From Pontederia crassipes (lineage: Eukaryota; Streptophyta; Magnoliopsida; Commelinales; Pontederiaceae), in the NCBI GenBank assembly GCA_030549335.1, contig JAUKPH010000017.1, forward strand, positions 14,035,501 through 14,099,500: a stretch of DNA of 64,000 nt, written 5' to 3'. Of this stretch, positions 48,470-62,761 are shown piece after piece (within the stretch, counting starts at the first letter, position 1; each line of letters starts with the position of its first letter). Under the pieces are notes generated by a model. That model searched no databases and was not told the origin of the DNA. It saw only the letters and a program-made list of their open reading frames with translations. Position numbers and translations under genes: made by a program.

Positions 48470-49297
48470 TGTAACGTCACGAGATTTTTTTTTGCCTGGT
48501 CAGAAGGCTATCTCGGCGACGTCATTCAATTCTATACCTTGACTTTGACTAGTCAACAAATTGACTTACATAAGCGGAAGACTAATTTATAACATTCTAT
48601 TACAATATACGAAAGCTATTATACCATATCTAATAACTTGTGAGTTAGGGTCCACGCCTATACAGTAATGGACCCTATATTCATGTGCATGTCATCCGTC
48701 AGAGGAGTCACCAACCGTCTCACCATCGCCATCACCATCACCAGGGGCAAAGCCCAATGAGATAACTCAGTACGTAGGGTCACCCATAATATTTATATAA
48801 ATCATGGTCAATATCAATATCAATACTATTAATAAATAATTATCCATAACAATATATAATTGATCAGAGGTCAATGAAGACTACAATTCAACAATAATTC
48901 AATTAATAATTAACAATTGATCAATGTTCAATTGGCCAAAAGTCGATGAAGGCCACAATAACAATTATCAATTCAATTCTATTAATAATTTATCAATTTA
49001 TCTATCAGGCACAAAGACCGTAATTTATTATCCATTAGCCATAATGGTACAATTCAATTTTTTTCCATCAGCCATAAGTGCGAAATCGATAGTCTATCAA
49101 CCACTAGGGCGAAATCAATTGTCCATCAGCCACTAGGGTGCAATTCAATTAATAATTCGATCATCAATTCCATCTTTGGAGTTATGATCAACCCTTTCGG
49201 GCACAATAAGAGAGCTCTTTATTATTATGGGATACCATGCCACTTCAATCAATAAGTTTGAGTATGATGGAGGACGAAGGATCACACCAAAACAGTT

Positions 49298-49490
49298 AGC
49301 CCGAAGGCCCTATCAACCCGAAGGTGTAGTTAGCCCGAAGGCCCTATCAACCCGAAGGCACAATATTAGCCCGAAGGCCCTATCAGCCCGAAGGCGCAAT
49401 ATTAGTCCGAAGGCCCTATCAACCCGAAGGTGCAATATTAGCTCGAAAGCCCTATCAGCCCGTAGGCGCAATTAGTCCGAAGGCCCAATC
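49298..49490 (+). repeat. Minisatellite of 34-36 bp units within the solo LTR
   Basis: Five to six units of the type AGCCCGAAGGCCCTATCA followed by A/GCCCGAAGG and a variable GCGCAATATT spacer. Each unit is itself two related halves around CCCGAAGG. I do not see this expansion in the LTR at 22624-24867. Confidence 0.85.
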
Positions 49491-50837
49491 AGTCCCAGTG
49501 GCAAACGGTAGACATTGGCCCAATACATTTTCAATTTTATCTCAATTACCTAAAATGTATCTTTAACAATTATCTTAGGTTGATCATGACCCAATCGAAA
49601 AATCACTATTAATTAATAATATGATCAGATAGGATGACGGTAAATTGGATACGATGACAATTTGATCAGGATCAATCAATAATGAGGTCAATGAATCAAT
49701 ACCATAATCAATATCATGATTGAGTGTAATGCCAATAATAATCAATATGATGACAATATGATCATAATAAAATCAGAGATGTTAATCAAATGATCGACAA
49801 TGATCAACGATCTTAAGAATCCAATAAACTATAAATCAATTCATAAAAATATGTTTTCTATTCTAGAACACAATCCGTGTTGATCATTAACCGAATCATG
49901 CTAAATAGAATTCAAGCCATGTCAGACAGAACCCCTACCGGATTATGTCACCATCAAGAATTGTATTTCCAATATAATTTTCGGAGGTCATATCTATGTC
50001 ATTCAATATTCAATCGATGCAAAATAATATATAATTTATGTATAATGAAGAAGAGTCCTGGGGTCCATGTCGCGGAAAAATCGACGCCATGGGGATCCCC
50101 CTACGTACCTCAAGTTGATTGAAAAATAACTTTGTTTCTGATCGTAAATTGATTGTACCAATGTTGAATTTTGCCCGAGCAATTACTCAAATCCTTTTTC
50201 TCTATATATTCTATTTTTCTTTTCCTGGTCAAGAAATTAAATAAATGAATTATCATAAATGAAAGAAATAAAATATCTATTTTCTACGTTCTTCATTTTA
50301 TTTCTTTCTAGACCCACGTCTTCTTTTTTGACATCTTCTCTCCCTATTTTTTTCGACCTATTTCTTTTTTTTTAATTCTCTCTCTAAATCTTCCTCCTAT
50401 CCATTATGGCCGTAACCTCCCAACTCTTTCTTTCTTTTTTTTCCATAGTCGATCGGTTTTTGGCCGCAAACGGCCAATCCGTTTTGGCCTTAATATCCCA
50501 CCTTTATTATTATTTTTTTCCTTCACCTTTTCTCGGCCCGTAATATGCACATGTCCCCTTTTATTTTTTTAACCTCTTCTATTCCTCTTTTTTTCTCTTT
50601 TGATTTTATCCCTCTCTCATTCTCTTTCTACCTCTTTTGCGGGCGTAACAAACTCTTTCCTTTCTTTTAAGTTTTCTCTCTCCAATCAACCTGCATGCAC
50701 ACCTTTTTTTTTCATGTTTTACTATTTCTATCTCCACCTTTTTTTTTACATCTTTCTCTCTTCCGGAGCGCCCCCGGCGGCCCTTGAAAATCCGGAGGAT
50801 CGAGTGCCGACGTCGCCCGGTCGTACTCATAAAGAAT

Positions 50838-50908
50838 ATGACGTCGTATGATCCATGTAGCTAACCCCACCTAGTAGGATAAGTCTTTGTTATTGTTGTT
50901 GTTGTTGT
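50838..50908 (+). mobile_element. 3' fragment of an Au-type SINE
   Basis: GACGTCGTATGATCCATGTAG, then CCCCACCTAGTAGGATAAG and a TTGTTGTTGTTG tail match the 3' half of the SINE at 16531-16711 (read on its own strand). The 5' half is missing and no target duplication is clear. It lies near the left junction of the mitochondrial-type block. Confidence 0.75.
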
Positions 50909-53900
50909 CTTTCTATTTATTTTGGCCTTCGCCTCTTTCCCTCTATCTTTGTCCTTCCCCCTTCGAAACTCTCCTAGGTGGGGTTACCTCGTCACCTCCC
51001 CTGTCAGTTAGCAAGCCGAACTCGCTACAGCAGCACAGGCAGGAAGAAAATATTCACGAGTCTTTGCCGCTCCGCCCTTTTGTTGTTAGCTCTTCGACTT
51101 GTCTCCTGTCAGCTACTCTCGCTTCGTCCCCGCCACTGCAATCGAAAGCGCCTCTGCTCTTCCCAAGTCAGCTCTAGTCTCTCGTCACTGGTCCAGTAGA
51201 AATAACCTCAGCTTCTAGCAAAAAATGAGCTATACTCAGCCCTTTTTTTTAGGCCTTGAATTCGATTGACGTGGTTCTAGCTCGTTTTAAGGAGCTTATA
51301 GCGAGTTTTGCATTGTCCCTCTTAACGTCGCTGGTCATCCCAACTCTATTAGCTATCGAAAGCCGTACAACCCTTCCCGCTTGCCACAAGTAATCGCTAC
51401 AGAAAGCACCACAGCCACAAGCACAGTAATCGGAACAGCAACAGGTCTTTTGTCACTCTCCCTGTAGTCAAGACGTAGGGAGTATTATGACCAGCTTCAC
51501 TGACGTCTGCTTTTGTCTCTCGTCCTTCGTCCGCTATGCTTCCTAGTAGGTATGATGCCCAGCAACAGGCGCACAAGCAGGACTAGCAACTCGGTCCACT
51601 GGTTGTAGCAAGAGGAGCTGGAGCAGGTCTTGAAGAGCCTACTACTCGCTCTCGTATGTATATAGCAATCGTAATATTTGCTGTAACTCCCCTCTGGTTA
51701 GCAAGCAAGCGTAACCTTACCTTCGAAAGGGGTCAACGGGCTCCTACTCTTCCTAACTTGACCTTCTCGAGCTGCCTGGCACAAGAGCAAGCGCTGTACT
51801 CTATCCGCACTCGTCCCTGCACCCGCCACAGAAAGAGCTACACAAGCATAGTCACCTTCGAGCGGAATACGCGAGCCCAATGAGTTGAATAGGAAAGAAA
51901 GTCCGAATTGATGGATCGTTTCACTTGTTACTCATATTGGTGGAAAATGAAGAAAACCAGATCTCACTCGCAAGATGCTATGGAAAAACTGCTTTCAACT
52001 ATTCCCTTTGACGATTGAATCAACCTTTATGGTCCCATATTGAGTACTTCCTGAACTGAGAAAAACGATGTTTATGGAACTTCTTTTTCACTAACACTGA
52101 TAAGGACCCTCACGGGTTAAAGCTTAATTCGGCTACCGTACCAACTTGTAATTCCTGTTTTCCTCTCCTACAATAAGGGTCCAGCCCTACATATCAAGTT
52201 TTGGGCCTATGTTTTTCTTTTGAAAGGGAGTTCCCTGTTCACTATCCGATAGTCTGGCCAGCTTCCCTAGCTTTCCCTCCTTTCCTTATTGAAGAGAGGC
52301 TTTCGCTTTGCTTGTAGTCTTCGATTTCAGTGCTGTATGCTTTGCTTGCTCGCTGGAATGGAGTGCTCCCCGGGGCGGGAAATCCAATTCCAATCAGACG
52401 GAAATGAACCTGATTAGCAGAGGATTGATTGGCCACTCCAGAAAAATGATTGTTGAGTCTCAACAACTAGAATAGGATCCCACAGAGAATAGAAGGGATT
52501 TAGATGTTCCGTTGACACAGAGGGAAAGCCCACTTAGGGAGGTGACACAGACTTATCAACGAACGCGGTGGTCGGACAGCAACAAACCAGCAACATACGG
52601 GAGGTTGAAATCAACTCAATCAATGAGAAAAAAATGACCAAAGTGAAATGTTACAAGAAGATCTACCACTACATCAGGTTATACAATAAGGAAGACAAAA
52701 TGATTGACAAAGATGAAGCGAGAAAATGGAAAGCGAGAAAACGGAGCGCGTGGAGGCTTTCGAGCGCCCCTTTTCTTTGAATTACTCATTACTGAGAAAC
52801 TCGCAATTTGAAAGTGAAAACTCGCACCCGAGCGGTCGAAATGGCTAATGATTCCGACTGATACATCGAAATTGCCCCCTACGTTACCCGACGAGACAAA
52901 AAAGACCGGTATGAACTGGTTATCTTATGAAGAAACTTCTCCTGAAACATATTCGGCTTAGGGAATAGAGAGAAACTTCTGAAAATGAGTAGAACAACAA
53001 CAGATTGCAGGAAATTCGACTGGGCAGCCGCCCCGAATACCTACTGGAGTCGCTTTCAGTGGTGTTGATCCTCATTCCAACAACTGCTTACTTCCTACTA
53101 TCGCTTGCCCTGATTCGGAAGAAGAGAATGAGGGCCTCAACAGGACTAACGACTCCCAACTCTCGCAACTATATTTGAAAATGGAGCATACCATTTTATT
53201 CTGGCGAATTCATTAAGATCTCAAATCTATATGGACCACCATTGGAACGTTTCAAAAAGGAATGAATGAAGGGGGCAGGGACAGACAGGAATTAGGTAGT
53301 AGGGGGCCGTCTGCACGAGTATGCGATTAGTGCGGGATTCGGTACGGATGACCGGACAGACGCGAGAGATGTTTTCCCCCCGCCCTCTACGAATCCATTC
53401 CTTTTATCGCGACTCGATACCTTAAGACCGATTAGCGGATTCCGAGTGGGGGACGTTTTTTTTATGCTCGGCTGGAGACGAAGACCGTGCTCCAAGCCGG
53501 TGTACTAAAGCCTATTTATATCTGGTACTATCCTTTAAGCAAGACCCAAAAATGAGTATATGTGCTCCCGGTACAAAGTACTATGGAATAAGACTTCTCC
53601 TTCCTAAAGCATCACTTCAGCGGTAGCTTCCCCCGACCTTCTACTCCGTACTATGAGATGGAGGAAGGCAAGACTTTGTAATTGCAATGCACTATCCTCC
53701 AAATCTCCTTTCCGCGTTAGCGGACTTTTTTCATTCTTCACCCGCGAATATGTATGCTACCAGTTGATCGGATCTTCGGGCAACCAATTTAGCTCTATCA
53801 TTCCTTCCCCACCCAATGTCTCTGGTAGTTCGAGCTTGCTTTTATACTACCAAACGGGGAATCTATTCCTCTCCCATTTATGGGGACTTCCCTTCCATCT

Positions 53901-54660
53901 ATACTGAATGGATCTTTTGTCCCCTTCCGAAAAAATGGCCCATCAACAACAACTGGCCTACAACAAGAACAACAGGAACTGGCTGAGACCAACGATTGGG
54001 CACATCTGACTCCGGAAAGACAAGGGCGCTCCCCTTCCGTTAGTCTGATCAACTTACAGGATTCCTATGCTATTTCCTTTGCATAAGGGTAGGCTGTGTG
54101 CCCGCATAAGGAGTTCTTTTCCAACTAAGGAAAGGACAGGTCATGGGATAAGCATAGCCTACGAGTTGACCATGGTTTCGGGCCGCTACCAACAACCGTC
54201 ATAGGTCGGTCGTCCTTCCCAATCCTCTGGAAAGAGATCCATTGTCCTAAAATGAAAGATCCCCATCCACTACCTAACTTAACACGCCCCATGCAAGCAC
54301 AACCAGGTGAACCTACCATCGGACAAGGCGGAAAGACATTGGAGAAGGAACTCATCCAGCCGGAGACCAAGACAGCAGCTAGAGAGAGAGTGTTGGCGAG
54401 CTATGGGACAGGGATAAAGACAGTCCTCTGGGAGTGATAGATATCACGCCGCGCCGGATGATTTGTCCCAATTCGACATCAACAAGCTGAAAAGCACCAT
54501 TCACAACAAATGACTTAAGTTATACGTGCGGCTGCATGATGGATAGAGTGCGACGCGCTGGACGAGAGGAAAACCTAATCGCCGAATAGCTGAACGGTCA
54601 CAAGTAAGCTATTGAATGGAGGGCTGTCAGAGGTGGGTGGGGACAAGAGTAATTGACTAC

Positions 54661-54927
54661 TCACCTGACAAAGACAAAGAATCGACTTGAGGTCTTCCTA
54701 TAGTTGATGTCGGTTTGGAAAACGATCTCGGGTGGACCCAGAAAGGCCAATTCCGCAACGTAGTATGAAGAAAACCACCTATGGGCGATTGACTTCAAAC
54801 AAATATTGAGCGCTCGACCCTCTCGATCCCGCTTTTTCTGCAACTGCTTTAATGCGCGGGGGGTTAACAACTTTAGCAAGTGTTTTAAGACCTTGCCTTT
54901 TGAGCTGGAGAACTTTGTGCCATCCAT
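54661..54927 (-). other. Unassigned open frame within the mitochondrial-type block
   Basis: This frame of 88 codons is rich in Lys/Arg and includes KVLKHLLKLLTPRALK and a WFSSYY stretch. I do not recognise the family. Mitochondrial intergenic DNA often carries such frames, and in the nucleus it would be translated only if a promoter had been gained. Listed because it is one of the more protein-like frames in the block. Confidence 0.2.
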
Positions 54928-56461
54928 TCCTGCCTTTCATTTTTTGACAATACCGTATACCAGCTCCCCCGACGACCGAGATTGAGCCCTCGCCTTCTGA
55001 TCTCCTTCCTGACTCACAAAGAACAGGTCTTGACTTGGAAACAACTGAGCATCCTGGCTCAGACGAGAGAAAGCTAACGATATACTTCTCAAATGCAAGT
55101 GCAAGTCGAACGAGATACCTCTTGTTGTATTAATCACTCGATGCCTTCATCTGCCGAACCATCCCTGCCTTGGTCTTCCCTTTGTCTCTGTCTTCGCTCG
55201 CTTGGCTCGGCTCGGTATTGAAGAATACAAACTCTCCTTTGTTCGAGCTTTGCTGGTCTATTTCTAATGAAGACTACTTTGGTACATAAAGAGGTTAATA
55301 AGTTTATACACTTTAGACTTATTCTTCCAATCCCTCTCTTATCGAATGAGCAGGTAAGTACATTCATCTTCCCCCCTGACTAAGCATGATCCCCCGGTCG
55401 ATTGAGTCGAAACTTCCCCTTTGTACCGATTCCGGAATGTACCTAGGTAGCGAGTGATTAAGACAGCTCGAGTTGCTAAGAAGTCAAGAACGTTGTTTAT
55501 TATCCCCTTTCCTTATATCTTCCTTCTATCGAGCGAGATTGAGAGATGAAGCGGGCAAGCAACATCGTGTATTTAAATAAGGAGTGCGAGTAGGTTAGAT
55601 CATAAGGAGAAGAACTCATAAGAGAGTAAGAAGAAAGAGATAGAGCAAAGGGCTTAGCAGGTCGCTCAGCAGACTCAACAGATCATAGCTCGGAAACAAG
55701 ACTTGGAAAAGGCACTGAGCAAACATCGGTATCTGCCTTAGATGGCTTTGATTGATTTCCACCCGAGCCGATAAAACGGAAAGCAGCGACGCGCTCCGAC
55801 TTTCGAGCGCTCCGACTTTTGAGCGCTCCTTTCCCCTTGATGGACCTTGTTGAACTTGAAGACTGCTCAACTCCCCCAGAACAAGACTATATAAGACAAG
55901 CATCAATGCCCGGCCCCAGTTAAGCAAAACACCCTGCCAGGACGGGCATATCATACCAGTAAGTTTGAGCTGGTTCAGAATCATCAAATATTGATGAAAG
56001 CATTGATGCTGGCTTAAAGTCCTAAACAAGGCTAGGCACGAACACGAACATCAGTACCTGGGTCAGGCTCAACAGATCTTGTTGGGTCAGGAGATCCTAG
56101 TGATTCGGAAGGAGAAGAAGAAGGCTCGAAAGCAGGCGTGGAACACATCAACAATTCCAACCTAGAAAAGAGATAGATCTCCTATAGGCTATACAAGAGA
56201 AGCATATCTTGTCTCAGAACTAGGCAACTAATAAGGAATGAAGAAGAAAATAGAAGAGAAGTCAGTTCCTCTTTCTCGTTCGAGGGCAGGAGGACTTGTT
56301 TCTCACTATTCTAATACAGGACTTTATTACCGCTGCTCGAATCCTTCTTTTCTAACCCGATGTTTGGGATCCGAACCAAGGCATTCCGGCATCTACGCTA
56401 CGCCCCTGGTCTCACCCTCTGAAGCAAAGTCGGACAAGGGGGAAAGACATGGAATTGATAG

Positions 56462-56534
56462 GGAACCGTAGCCAAGTGGCTAAGGCAGAAGTCTGCAAAA
56501 CTTCTATTCGTCGGTTCGAATCCGACCGGTTCCT
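56462..56534 (+). tRNA. trnC2: tRNA-Cys(GCA), bacterial-type mitochondrial (trnC2-like)
   Basis: A full cloverleaf is visible. The 7-bp acceptor stem GGAACCG/CGGTTCC pairs perfectly, the D arm is closed by GCC/GGC, and the anticodon stem GAAGT/ACTTC carries loop CTGCAAA with anticodon GCA at 56495-56497. The variable loop has 5 bases. The T arm GTCGG/CCGAC has loop TTCGAAT. Base 73 is T, as tRNA-Cys requires. CCA is not encoded. The stretch TAGCCAAGTGG.TAAGGCAGA.GTCTGCAAAA closely resembles bacterial tRNA-Cys (Bacillus type, from memory) and differs from the native plant mitochondrial trnC, so it fits trnC2, a horizontally acquired gene reported in several angiosperm mitochondria. No stem mismatch is seen, but expression in the nucleus is unlikely without internal A/B boxes being recognised. 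Confidence 0.93.
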
Positions 56535-57904
56535 GCAGCGCCATTCCATCCATCCTTTTGTTATATTGTTAGTGGATAGAACGTTGTACCAGGCGAAACC
56601 CTGAGAATTTCTTGAGTGAGAGTTGCATATATATGGACAGAAACAAGCCTCCCTGATTCAAGTTTCATTCATTTATACCAACGATATCCACGCTAAAGAT
56701 GAGGGCCTTCTTTCTTTTGCAGTTCATATCAGCTCCAGTAGAGTCAGTTTCGTTCATAAACTGGGCCGAAGCAGTTAATTAGATAGGGCAGAGACTCGCT
56801 GGCTTGCGAGTTGCCATCTCCGTAGTTGATTGCTAACCAGAGGATAGTGACAACTAATATTCCTATTCCTGCTTGTGTGCTTGTTTGCTATTCTTCCTGT
56901 TCCTGTTACGAGACGACCTCGGCTCAAGCTGACCCCACACCGCAAAATGTTTTGCATATGTCACACAGCAAAATAATGTTGCGACCGTAATAAAACTATG
57001 CAAATCATATTACACCGTAGAACGACGTCACAATACGTACCTATGTGAATCTTTGCCTTCTTCGTTGGGAAAGTTGCGACCGTCACCGAAGAACGCCACG
57101 CACCGAAATAATTTCTCTCCCTTTTTTTTCGAGTTTAGCCGGCCCTATCTCTTTATTTATAAGATTTATAATTCTCCATTAAACTCTAAGTATCTTTTGT
57201 AATCCAACTTCAATTTAATCTCTTAATTAATCCATTTAACTAATTCAGATTTATTTTCATTAAATAAATTCCAAAATTCATTAAATAGTATTATCCTTCC
57301 AATTTTCCTTTATTTTCGGAATTATTTAATTTCATAATATTTTATCATCTAATTTTCAAATTAATGACTAAAATATTTTTAAGTCATAAAATTATCAATC
57401 CTATTCTACGTGGAAGTAGTATATTCATTAATATATCTTTTGAATCTCAAATCAAATTGAAATACCTAATCTCAGTCTAATTATGATTTTCACTCTTAAT
57501 GAAATTTAAATTTTCTTCAATCCATCAAATACTCTAATTAAATTATAAAATTACTATATTATCATGATAGAATCGTGGGATGTTACACATAATGTTGTCT
57601 CTGACTGATCCGAATGTCCTATTTTCATTAATCTTCTTATGGCTTTTGTACTTCATGTTTTTAACTAACAGATGAAAAAAATAATAAAAATGTTTCTTCG
57701 TTTACAGTAAAAACAAAATTTTGGAAAAAAAATGTTTTCTGAAAACAAAACAAACTTGCTTAAATGTACAATAACATTTATGATCCGATTATGACACAAG
57801 AAAAGTAAATTTATTGTCGCATAAAAAAACACGTTCACAAAATTGTGTGGATCTTTCAGAATCAGAGTTCACGTGGTGGATCCACAATTGGATTGGTACG
57901 TAAA

Positions 57905-58245
57905 TGATAGGATCCTATTTTCTAATAATAATAGGATTAATTTATTTTCTTTAACTAGGATTAGTTATTTGCTTCTACTTTGATTAGCACTCTAGTTATT
58001 TACTTCCTAGTTTGATTAGCACTCTATTTTTTTTATTTCTAGTTCTATTAGGACTTGTTTGGGTTACCCTATAAATAGGGCCCCCTTGGAACTCTTTTTA
58101 ATGAGATATATGAGAATACAATCTTCTTTTGATATTTGCTTGGAGCAACTATCTTGGAGGCTTGACCCCCTCGAAGTGGTCTATTGGAGGCTTGATCCCC
58201 TCGAAGTGATCTAATTAGGATCCTAGTTGGACTAGGAACCTAACA
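57905..58245 (+). repeat. 5' LTR of the gypsy element
   Basis: It begins TGATAGGATCCTA and ends ACCTAACA, with TATAAATA at 58070-58077 and repeated CTTGA.CCCCTCGAAGTG units near the end. It is about 23 bases longer than the 3' LTR because of a local duplication after GGATTA. Confidence 0.92.
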
Positions 58246-61200
58246 ATTGGTATCAGAGCTGTTCGATCTTTTTCGGACAATTGTGATATCTCGGGTTTTT
58301 GGTTGGACCAATAACCTAGTTATCTCCATCTTCCGCTGCCATCTATCGCATCCGCTGCTGCCACTATATCGCCATCACTACCGCTTACTAATATTCATAA
58401 TCTAATATTTCAAATGTGCAGGAAAAATCTATGGCTTCACAGGATTTATCGACTTCAGAAATTTTAACACTAGCCGATCGTCTTACTCGAATCGAAGAAC
58501 GATTTCAACAAATTTTACTAGTATTCAACGACGACAAGAAATATCAACGAGTAAACAAGGGAAATCACGTAGAAGATAAGCTTGCAAATATTCAACAATT
58601 AAGTACAGTCGAGGAGTACCAGACTCGTTTCGAATTATTATCAAGTCAAATTAAAAATTGGAGCGAACATCGATTGGTGGAAACTTTTGTTGAAGGACTT
58701 CTCCCCGATCTTCGACGAGAAGTAAAAGCTCGACGGCCCATTACTATAGTTGCTGCAATTTCTTTTGCTCGATGGGAAGAAGAACGTTTAAATGAAGAGA
58801 GGCATAGATCAAGTCGACACTTGAACAAATCATTCCGAAGCACAAGTGCAATAATATTTTCATCAAATGTAGAAGAGTCCAACACTTCAATTTCTTCAGA
58901 AATTTTTACGAAAACTTTATCACAACAAGAAGCGAAGGATATTGAAAATAATTCAGTCGAAGTTCAAGCTTCAGATTCATCTGTTGAGACATCTTTTAAA
59001 GATGAGACATCTATAATTCTACCGTCAAAGGAGCAAACAACTTCTGAAGAATCTAGTGCAAAATACATTGAAGAATCATATATTAATAAGGACTTATTCA
59101 TGACGATTAACTCATCCTCAAGAAAATTTGAAGATTGCGGTACTCAGAAGGCTCAAGGTCAATTTTATTCATGCGAAAAGAATTTGATCAATTTCAAATT
59201 CTCTTTCTTCAATGAATGCAAGCTTGTTCCAATGCTACCGATGCATAGTCAAAGCTACTCTCTGAAGAAGGATCTCTATTTTACTCAAGTTATTAAGAGA
59301 CTTCGTCTGATCAAGCATCGAAAAGAAAAGTTCTCTCACATGTTTCTGTATAGCCTTGAGGAAGTTGTGCTCGGTATTGAGTAGTTACGTACATTGGGAG
59401 AAATCACTTGGGACTTCTCAAAATTAATAATGAAATTTGAATTGGAAGGCCAAAATGTGATATTAAAAGGAAAACGTTGCAAGGTCAATTCTATATCAAA
59501 TCATCGCATGGAAAAAATACTTCGAAAGGAAAAAAGGGGTTATATTGTTCAACTCCAACTTATGGGAGTAACACATTTACCATCAACTGTTGATAATGGA
59601 CTTGAGCTCTTGCTTTCAGAATTTTTAGATATATTTGCAGAATCAGAAGGACTGCCACCTCAACCATCACATGATCATCGAATACTCCTCTTATCAGGTT
59701 CTTCTCCGACTAATGTTCGGTCATATCGTTATCCTCATTTTCAAAAGGCTAAAATTGAAAAAATAGTTCAAGAAATGCTTGAAGCAGGAATAATTCGTCC
59801 TAGTGTTAGTCCTTATTCTTTTTCGGTGTTATTGGAAAAAAAGAAAGATGGTTTATGGCGTATGTGTGTGGATTATAGAGCTCTCAATAGAGTCACTATC
59901 AAGGACAAATACCCTATTCCAGTGGACGATGAGTTGCTTAATGAACTTGGAGGTGCAAAGTTATACACTAAGCTCGACCTGCGTTCTGGGTATCATCAAA
60001 TTCGGGAGCACCTATCACATTTGAAGATAATTTTTACTATACTTCGGGAGCATAAACTATTTGTTAAGAAATCTAAATGCAGTTTTGGTCAACCGCAAGT
60101 AGAGTACCTTGGTCATATTGTCTCTTATGAGAGCGTTTCAGTGGATCAATATAAAATTCAAGTAATGCTTGAGTGGCCCGTTCCTCATACAGTTAAAGCA
60201 CTTAGAGGATTCTTGGGCTTAACATGATACTATCACAAGTTTGTGAAGGATTATGGTAAGATAAGTGCACCACTGACATCTTTGCTGAAGAAGGATTCCT
60301 TCAAGTGGAATGATGATGCAAAAATGGCTTTTGATCAACTTAAGCTTGCTATGTCCACAACCCCAGTCTTAGCTTTGCCAAATTTTGATAAATTATTCGT
60401 CATTGAATCTGATGCTTCAGGAGTCGGGATTGGTGCTGTGTTGATGCAAGAAGGACGACCAATTGCAAATACTAGCAAGGCTCTGACAAAAACACATCTC
60501 AGTTGGTCTGTGTATGATAAAGAGATGCTTGCCCGATTTCAGATTCGTACAGATCATAATAGTTTAAAACATATATTAGAGCAAAGAATCACTTCTATGC
60601 TACAACAAAAGTGGGTCTCTAAATTATTGGGATATGATTATGAGATTACTTATAAAAGAGGAACTGAAAATCTTGTGGCTGATGCTCTCTCTCGTCTTCC
60701 TGAGCATGGAACCTTATCTGCTATATCTATTTTGTCCACTGCCCTTTTGGATTCTATTCGTCAAGAATGGTAAGAGGATGCTGCTATCAAGACCTTAATT
60801 CAAAGGTTACAAGATGAACCTCTTTCAGTTTCACGGTATTCTTGGCACTCTAGAAATCTTCTATATAAAGGTAGAATGATTTTAGTGCCAAACTCAGCTC
60901 ATAAGTTAACATTACTAAAGGAATTTCATGGTTCCCCAATGGCTGGGCATCCTGGTGTACTTCGCACATATAAGCGTAATTCTCGATAATTCTTTTGGAC
61001 ATGCATGAACAATGATGTCAGGAATTTTGTTGTTGAATGTGATGTTTGCCAGCGTCATAAAGGGGAAACAATTGCAAGTCCAGGTTTATTGCAGCCACTT
61101 CAAATTTCTATTGAAGCATGGGTAGATATATCTATGGATTTCATTGAGGGTTTACCCTCTTCGCATGGAAAAATTACAATATTTGTGGTAGTGGATCGCC

Positions 61201-62206
61201 TTACTAAGTATGCCCACTTTTGTGTCATGTCTCATCCATATACGACAGTTACTGTTGTTAATGTTTTTGTTAAAAATGTTGTCAAGTTGCATGGGGTGCC
61301 ACGATCAATCGTAAGTGATAAAGACAAAGTCTTCACTAGCCAATTTTGGAAGGAACTTTGTCGTTTACAACAAACCCAGTTGACAATAAGCACCGCTTAT
61401 CATCCTCAAACGGACGGACAAACTGAAGTTGTCAATAGATGTTTGGAATCTTATCTTCGTTGTTTCTCAAGTGATAGGCCTAAAAATTGGGTGAAGTGGC
61501 TTCCTTGGGCAGAGTGGTGGTACAACACAACTTTTCACTCTTCAACAAAACTTACTCTTTTTGAAGCTATGTATGGATATCCTCCTCCTGCTATTGCCCA
61601 ATATTCAACAGGCGCTACTACTGTTAATGCTGTGGATATTAAATTACGTGATCGAGACCAAGTACTAAGGCTATTAAAGGATAATCTTACTAGTGCTCAA
61701 TCTCGAATGAAACAACAAGCTGACAAAAAGCGAACTGAGAGGGAATTTCTAATTGGAGACTTAGTTCATTTACGTCTGCAGCCATATAAACAACTTTCTG
61801 TTACTGTTCGGAGTTTAATGAAATTAGCACCTCGATTTTATGAGCCTTATAAAGTTTTGGAGCGAATTGGGCCAGTAGCTTATCGTCTTGATCTACCTTC
61901 AACATCTCGTATTCATCCAATGTTCTATGTTTCTTGTCTTAAGAAGAAGCTTGGGAATAATATTTCTGCGCTACATCATCTTCCTGAATTGGATTCAGAA
62001 GGTAATGTTCGTGCAATACCTGAAATGGTTTTGAAGCGTCGTTTTATTCAACAAAAGAAGCATGCAGTTACTGAATGATTAATTAAATGGGAGAATTCGC
62101 CAGTTGAAGATGCTACTTGGGAACGTTATCAATCTCTACAAAGAAAGTTTCCTGAGTTTGTTGCTGCTCAGCCTTGAGGACAAGGCTAATTTAAAGGAGG
62201 CGGGAA

Positions 62207-62524
62207 TGATAGGATCCTATTTCCTAATAATAATAGGATTAGTTTATTTGCTTCTACTTTAATTAGCACTCTAGTTATTTACTTCCTAATTTGATCAGCA
62301 CTCTATTTCTTTTATTTCTAGTTCTATTAGGATTTGTTTGGGTTACCCTATAAATAGGGCCCCCTTGAAACTCTTTTTAATGAGATATATGAGAATACAA
62401 TCTTCTTTTGATATTTGCTTGGAGCAACTATCTTGGAGGCTTGACCCCCTCGAAGTGATCTATTGGAGACTTGATCCCCTCGAAGTGATCTAGTTAAAAT
62501 CCTAATTGGACTAAGAACCTAACA
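62207..62524 (+). repeat. 3' LTR of the gypsy element
   Basis: It begins TGATAGGATCCTA right after the purine tract and ends ACCTAACA. TATAAATA lies at 62349-62356 in the same direction as the NIK gene that starts at 62762. Confidence 0.92.
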
Positions 62525-62761
62525 ATCCAACCAGTTTCACCTTTAAACACCTCTACGCGCAGTTTTTGGATCTTTTATGCGTTTGGCTTGGCCTTTTCTC
62601 CTTGCATCGTTAGGTCTGCAAATTTCTTTGCAACAGATGACCAGACCGGTGATTCAAGCACTGAAAGAGGCGAAGGGAAGGGAAAGCGACCAATGGTTCG
62701 CTTCCTGTCCGCGTCGGACGACCTGTAGATGAACTCCTGCTCCATGGAGTCTGTGGTTTTA

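Follow-up and report, generated by a model that had tools for sequence, protein, structure and literature searches.

A bacterial-type tRNA-Cys gene, probably trnC2, within a mitochondrial-like nuclear insert of Pontederia crassipes

How does an intact tRNA-Cys gene that resembles bacterial genes come to lie in a plant chromosome, and is it there as a working gene or as a copy left by an organelle? The question is raised by a stretch of 64,000 nt in the assembly of Pontederia crassipes (C17:14035501-14099500, the whole of which is here called the window), and the genome searched was this assembly of 1.13 Gb in 43 contigs. The only tRNA gene that ARAGORN found in the window is a tRNA-Cys(gca) at 56461-56536 of the plus strand, and the Rfam model RF00005 matched the 73 bases given in Table 1 from end to end on the same strand (67 bits, E 2e-12). 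All stems are paired, the acceptor stem (GGAACCG/CGGTTCC) at 7/7, the D stem (GCC/GGC) at 3/3, the anticodon stem (GAAGT/ACTTC) at 5/5 and the T stem (GTCGG/CCGAC) at 5/5 positions, and the discriminator base 73 is T, so that the cloverleaf, the GCA anticodon and the U73 of a tRNA-Cys are all present. The sequence folds with a minimum free energy of -29.2 kcal/mol (z -4.5, equalled by none of 200 shuffles), the D and anticodon arms of this MFE structure being unlike those of the cloverleaf. A 50-base pattern covering the 5' part of the tRNA was found a single time in the window and in none of 100 shuffles (at most three mismatches allowed). A permissive Rfam search of 49000-58500 gave two other matches, both far below gathering, and a scan for bacterial promoters and terminators gave none, which is irrelevant to Pol III.

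Native mitochondrial and plastid trnC sequences of the same genome were located with reference genes as queries, which gave five native-type and 12 plastid-type matches. Three native mitochondrial pieces are identical to the window tRNA at 42/73, 40/73 and 42/73 positions and a plastid piece at 48/73, while the reference genes gave 48/75 (E. coli), 56/73 (B. subtilis), 49/73 (plastid) and 43/73 (native mitochondrial). The identity to native trnC is near chance, since the native reference gene, when shuffled 300 times, averaged 0.49 against the window tRNA with a maximum of 0.60. The best bacterial tRNA-Cys, from Nitrospirae, reached 62/74, and the set to which it belongs (118 genes from 120 loci) had a median identity of 0.767 and a lowest of 0.726, these values being biased upward by the choice of the loci with a pattern made from the D arm and anticodon arm of the window tRNA (29 fixed bases). 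The pattern itself was found at 117 or more loci in bacterial genomes and on three viral contigs. Of 99 genomes drawn from one bacterial phylum, among which only G003 had been chosen by pattern, 82 matched the window tRNA, the best with 90% over query bases 7-68; among the 20 matches listed for plasmids the highest-scoring had 88.7% over query bases 7-68 and among the 20 listed for phages 88.1% over query bases 8-66. Judged from these alignments the window tRNA is of bacterial type, neither native-mitochondrial nor plastid, and closer to bacterial tRNA-Cys than to either organellar gene. A preliminary description of the locus had read perfect stems, the anticodon GCA and T73 from the letters, all of which were confirmed by ARAGORN, Rfam and the letters themselves; its assignment to the bacterial type agrees with the identities above (up to 62/74 among the pattern-selected bacteria), and a closer likeness to the native or the plastid trnC, which it had named as speaking against itself, was looked for and is absent. 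Titles of records with a window-type D-loop name Deltaproteobacteria and other sulfate reducers, Nitrospirae, Clostridia, Armatimonadetes, Methylomirabilota, Omnitrophota and Elusimicrobia, and the donor lineage cannot be named because 73 bases are too few to choose among them.

A horizontally acquired mitochondrial tRNA-Cys of eudicots, trnC2-GCA, was reportedly described by Kitazaki et al. in 2011. In the literature a bacterial-like trnC is given for Beta, Vigna, Citrullus and Spinacia and as missing from Liriodendron (PMC3646698), and likewise given for quinoa (PMC6336861) and Agrostemma (PMC8662596). The window gene is like trnC2 in being a bacterial-type tRNA-Cys(GCA), unlike native mitochondrial and plastid trnC, in plant mitochondrial-like DNA, but differs in being nuclear; it is probably trnC2, and descent from trnC2 is most likely what this likeness reflects. 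We consider it highly probable that the window tRNA is a copy of trnC2 within a numt, and what carries this reading was observed directly: a tRNA of bacterial type, an insertion site seen empty in other repeat copies, decay at polarised sites, and related inserts on other contigs.

The tRNA lies in a mitochondrial-like block whose ends were set by other copies (Table 1). A copy on C14 (L143) matches from the left end onwards and differs in the sequence leftward of it, while copies on C18 (L141), C13 (L148) and C14 (L147) match up to the right end and then share a continuing sequence that is absent from the window.

Table 1. Features of the insert and of its nuclear site, in positions of the window
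Feature	Position	Strand	Basis or remark
Left part of the interrupted dispersed nuclear repeat	48470..50762		84-90% matches of >370 bp (L153-L156)
Piece with (TTG)n tail within the nuclear repeat, left of the block, which we take to be SINE-like	50763..50908		Missing from L154
Last nuclear bases left of the block, CTTTCTATTTATTTTG, matching the repeat	50909..50924		Alignment
Mitochondrial-like block, ~6.0 kb	50926..56942		Ends from other copies; BLAST extends the match of other copies to 56945
Bacterial-type tRNA-Cys(GCA), probably trnC2, T73	56462..56534	+	ARAGORN, Rfam (67 bits), comparisons
Anticodon GCA	56495..56497	+	ARAGORN, letters
Short filler or ambiguous bases	56943-56946		Between the block and the right part of the repeat
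Right part of the interrupted repeat	56947..57590		Repeat copies; L156 match begins only at 56967

Both flanks of the block are matched by four repeat copies elsewhere (L153-L156), among which only the L154 match extends to the end of the left part, and part of the SINE-like piece (50838-50899) is found again, inverted, elsewhere in the window. In three of the four repeat copies the same 18 bases stand in place of the block, the fourth (L156) being without the stretch, which identifies the empty site of a nuclear insertion; these 18 target bases were lost on insertion, and no target duplication was seen at the block junctions. The loss without duplication would fit end joining. An assembly error, with a mitochondrial contig wrongly placed inside a nuclear scaffold, might be suspected from the window copy being the most intact of nine tRNA matches in the genome (the next have 96% and 93% identity to it) and from a COX1 search of the assembly that found no mitochondrial contig but six COX1 pieces, all of them lying over 7 Mb inside their contigs. 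The block, however, sits exactly between the two halves of one nuclear repeat copy and has 45 private changes with an excess of C>T, and diverged copies of it lie on other contigs, so that a misjoin, rejected on the empty site and the private decay, is very improbable. Because of the empty site, the private decay and the diverged relatives on other contigs, the block is a real nuclear insert and not a misjoin. The move into the nucleus that the preliminary description had proposed is upheld by the same three observations, and the misjoined mitochondrial contig against which it had warned was not borne out on examination, the repeat halves flanking the block and the private changes being at odds with it.

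For the decay of the block a site was taken as polarised when at least two other copies had a base there and all others agreed, which was the case for 4270 of the 6020 positions in 50926-56945 (L146, which is the window itself, was omitted). At these sites the window block has changed privately in 1.05% (interval 0.77-1.41%), and the 45 changes consist of 29 C>T or G>A, 10 in the reverse direction and six transversions, which is the private C>T/G>A excess of nuclear decay (29 against 10, p = 0.003). Among the longer copies the private change amounts to 1.4% in L143 (45/3250), 2.8% in L141 (17/600), 4.2% in L144 (86/2064) and 7.3% in L145 (273/3739). If plant nuclear DNA changes at 6.5e-9 to 1.3e-8 per site per year, the age of the block in the window would be about 0.8-1.6 million years, and less if some of the private changes are mitochondrial variants or if methylated inserts mutate faster. 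A recent second move had been suggested earlier on the ground that the stems are unchanged; it is the polarised sites across the block that speak for recency, whereas the stems do not bear it out, as 40 stem bases would on average gather only 0.42 changes at 1.05% and would stay unchanged with a probability of 0.66. The intact tRNA is uninformative on recency because of this probability at the block's own rate, and intact stems were rejected as a clock; the intactness is what young age alone would give.

Of the nine tRNA matches, window included, eight were fetched, one being the window and seven being examined. ARAGORN calls a tRNA in one of these seven, the copy on C18, which differs at 3/73 bases of the tRNA (4.1%) and at 38/884 aligned bases (4.3%), and in these small numbers no extra constraint on its tRNA is visible; constraint on the tRNA above that on the flanks was thus not found in this copy, and the window copy is uninformative on the point. 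A search of the genome with 52500-57150 (40 of 363 candidates scored) gave 45 matches, one of them the window, 15 the nuclear repeat alone and 29 other copies of block pieces, and at each junction the other block copies continue with different sequence.

These comparisons bear on the possibility of a functional transfer, in which Pol III would transcribe the gene from its A and B boxes and so provide a tRNA-Cys for the cytosol or for import into the mitochondria. The cloverleaf is intact, an A box (TAGCCAAGTGG, at tRNA base 8) and a B box (GGTTCGAATCC, at base 52) are present which we take to fit the consensus, and a TTTT (56556-56559) begins 22 bases downstream of the tRNA. Against this, intactness is to be expected at 1.05% (P 0.66), the bases of both boxes are largely common to bacterial relatives and the only other full-length copy has changed at the background rate, and a functional transfer appears most unlikely. 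Equally slight is the chance that the nuclear trnC2 copy would be transcribed by Pol III and matured, its product being charged by an organellar or cytosolic CysRS; if true, the Pol III-matured copy would be a bacterial tRNA gene turned nuclear tRNA gene via the mitochondrion. No sign of nuclear selection on the window tRNA was found, nor any evidence in its sequence for a function of the nuclear copy.

As to the source of the block, we infer that it derives from mtDNA of Pontederia crassipes, to which point the type of the tRNA, the composition and the scattered copies of unequal extent and age. The GC content is 0.465 in the block (51000-56945) against 0.347 in positions 1-48000 of the window, and CpG observed/expected is 0.80 in the block. 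No Pfam family was found in any of its six read-through frames, and a protein-collection search with one 116-aa ORF of the block gave no relative (12 candidates, none scored). The genome holds numts, as exemplified by L161:3581-7984 on C13, a nuclear insert containing cox1 (in two frames) together with rps13 and a nad1 exon accompanied by a group II intron. Neither this numt nor the native trnC loci L174-L177 match the window block. Beside the start of the block in the C14 copy L143, 85 bp have 94% identity to a stretch ~1.4 kb upstream of the L161 cox1, a weak link as the stretch is itself a repeat, to which 14 of 48 matches in one search are due. With Pfam, 48 of the 85 ORFs of at least 85 aa in six further loci gave mitochondrial genes only in L161, and in five related loci the full set of 81 ORFs (75 aa or longer) gave Integrase_H2C2, RVT_1, Atrophin-1 and DUF3915, one each.

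A direct transfer from a bacterium to the nucleus, or bacterial contamination, would dispense with the mitochondrial step and would suit both the bacterial type of the tRNA and the indirect nature of the evidence for a mitochondrial source of the block. Against it, the surrounding 6 kb are devoid of a Pfam gene in all six frames and pieces of the block recur at many sites of the plant genome; long patterns of the tRNA had 0 matches in genome_contigs and viral_contigs, and on this result and the recurrence of block pieces contamination was rejected, leaving this origin with a very low probability. Least probable of all is a plastid-derived trnC that diverged within the mitochondrion, which is suggested by the core CCAAGTGG..TAAGGC common to plastid trnC and the window tRNA and by the trnC(GCA) of unknown origin filed with the chloroplast genes in a figure of the soybean mitogenome paper (PMC3576410), but which is rejected because the identity is 48/73 with plastid trnC and 62/74 with bacteria. 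Moreover, the extra D-loop base (GGCTAAGG) is present at 117 or more bacterial loci (the pattern required that base) and missing from the plastid pieces.

With the window tRNA as a numt copy of trnC2, the favoured reading, the mitochondrion of a eudicot ancestor would have gained a bacterial tRNA-Cys gene, a step taken from the literature, and ~6 kb of this plant's mtDNA carrying trnC2 would later have entered a break within a dispersed nuclear repeat and have been sealed in there by end joining, at the cost of 18 bases and without target duplication. Since then the insert would have been drifting in the nucleus as a pseudo-copy subject to C>T decay. Both the end joining and the absence of function are what we infer. 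Foreign tRNA genes gained by plant mitochondria are not confined to trnC2, and Knie et al. in 2015 are said to have described chlamydial-like tRNAs in early vascular plants. Fungal-derived tRNAs are reported for orchid mitochondria (PMC11827590); the window tRNA is like both cases in kind, but their donors are other than its own. Numts are described for sugar beet (PMC10409277) and soybean (PMC3576410), and the window insert is like them in being mitochondrial-like sequence in nuclear DNA, with C>T decay and copies of differing age, but unlike them in bearing an intact tRNA gene which had itself arrived by horizontal transfer, and in that its match to mtDNA is a presumed one. From these sources trnC2 in mitochondria is already known and numts are common; among the titles and beginnings of abstracts listed, mostly from outside subscription journals, no report of a nuclear trnC2 copy was found, which is a weak indication that none has been described.

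Should the reading hold, a bacterial gene would have resided in a plant at two places one after the other, the mitochondrion and then the nucleus, and the nuclear step can be dated roughly from the surrounding block. For annotators it would be a caution that an intact bacterial-type tRNA-Cys on a plant chromosome is not necessarily a contamination or a functional gene, since a young insert of organelle DNA can also account for it. The copies of graded age (~1 to 7% private change) could help to infer the mitochondrial trnC2 region of Pontederia crassipes.

The flanks of the block in the window contain transposons, for example a Gypsy-like LTR element at 57903-62526 with terminal stretches of ~89% identity (57903-58247 and 62205-62526) and matches to gag, RT and integrase. 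Elsewhere in the plant nuclear DNA, a match to the type-P1 twister ribozyme was found on C16 (L164:3789-3848, minus strand; Rfam, 68.2 against a gathering threshold of 67.2 bits). Several of the other trnC2 copies have peculiarities of their own. The copy in L142:3230-3869 (C12) is split after acceptor base 5 by 449 bases, which contain a tRNA-like stretch (Rfam, 42.1 bits) presumably resembling plastid trnW, and since this stretch sits inside the split copy, two organellar-type tRNAs are nested here. L149 (C12) and L150 (C11) carry an identical piece of trnC2 of 30-31 bases, from the anticodon loop to the T stem, in similar surroundings on both contigs, which looks as though one chimeric unit had been copied. 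At tRNA bases 65-68, where CCGG stands in the window and in the copy on C18, L123 (C12) and L124 (C17) share CTAG, which reflects either shared descent or repeated CpG decay.
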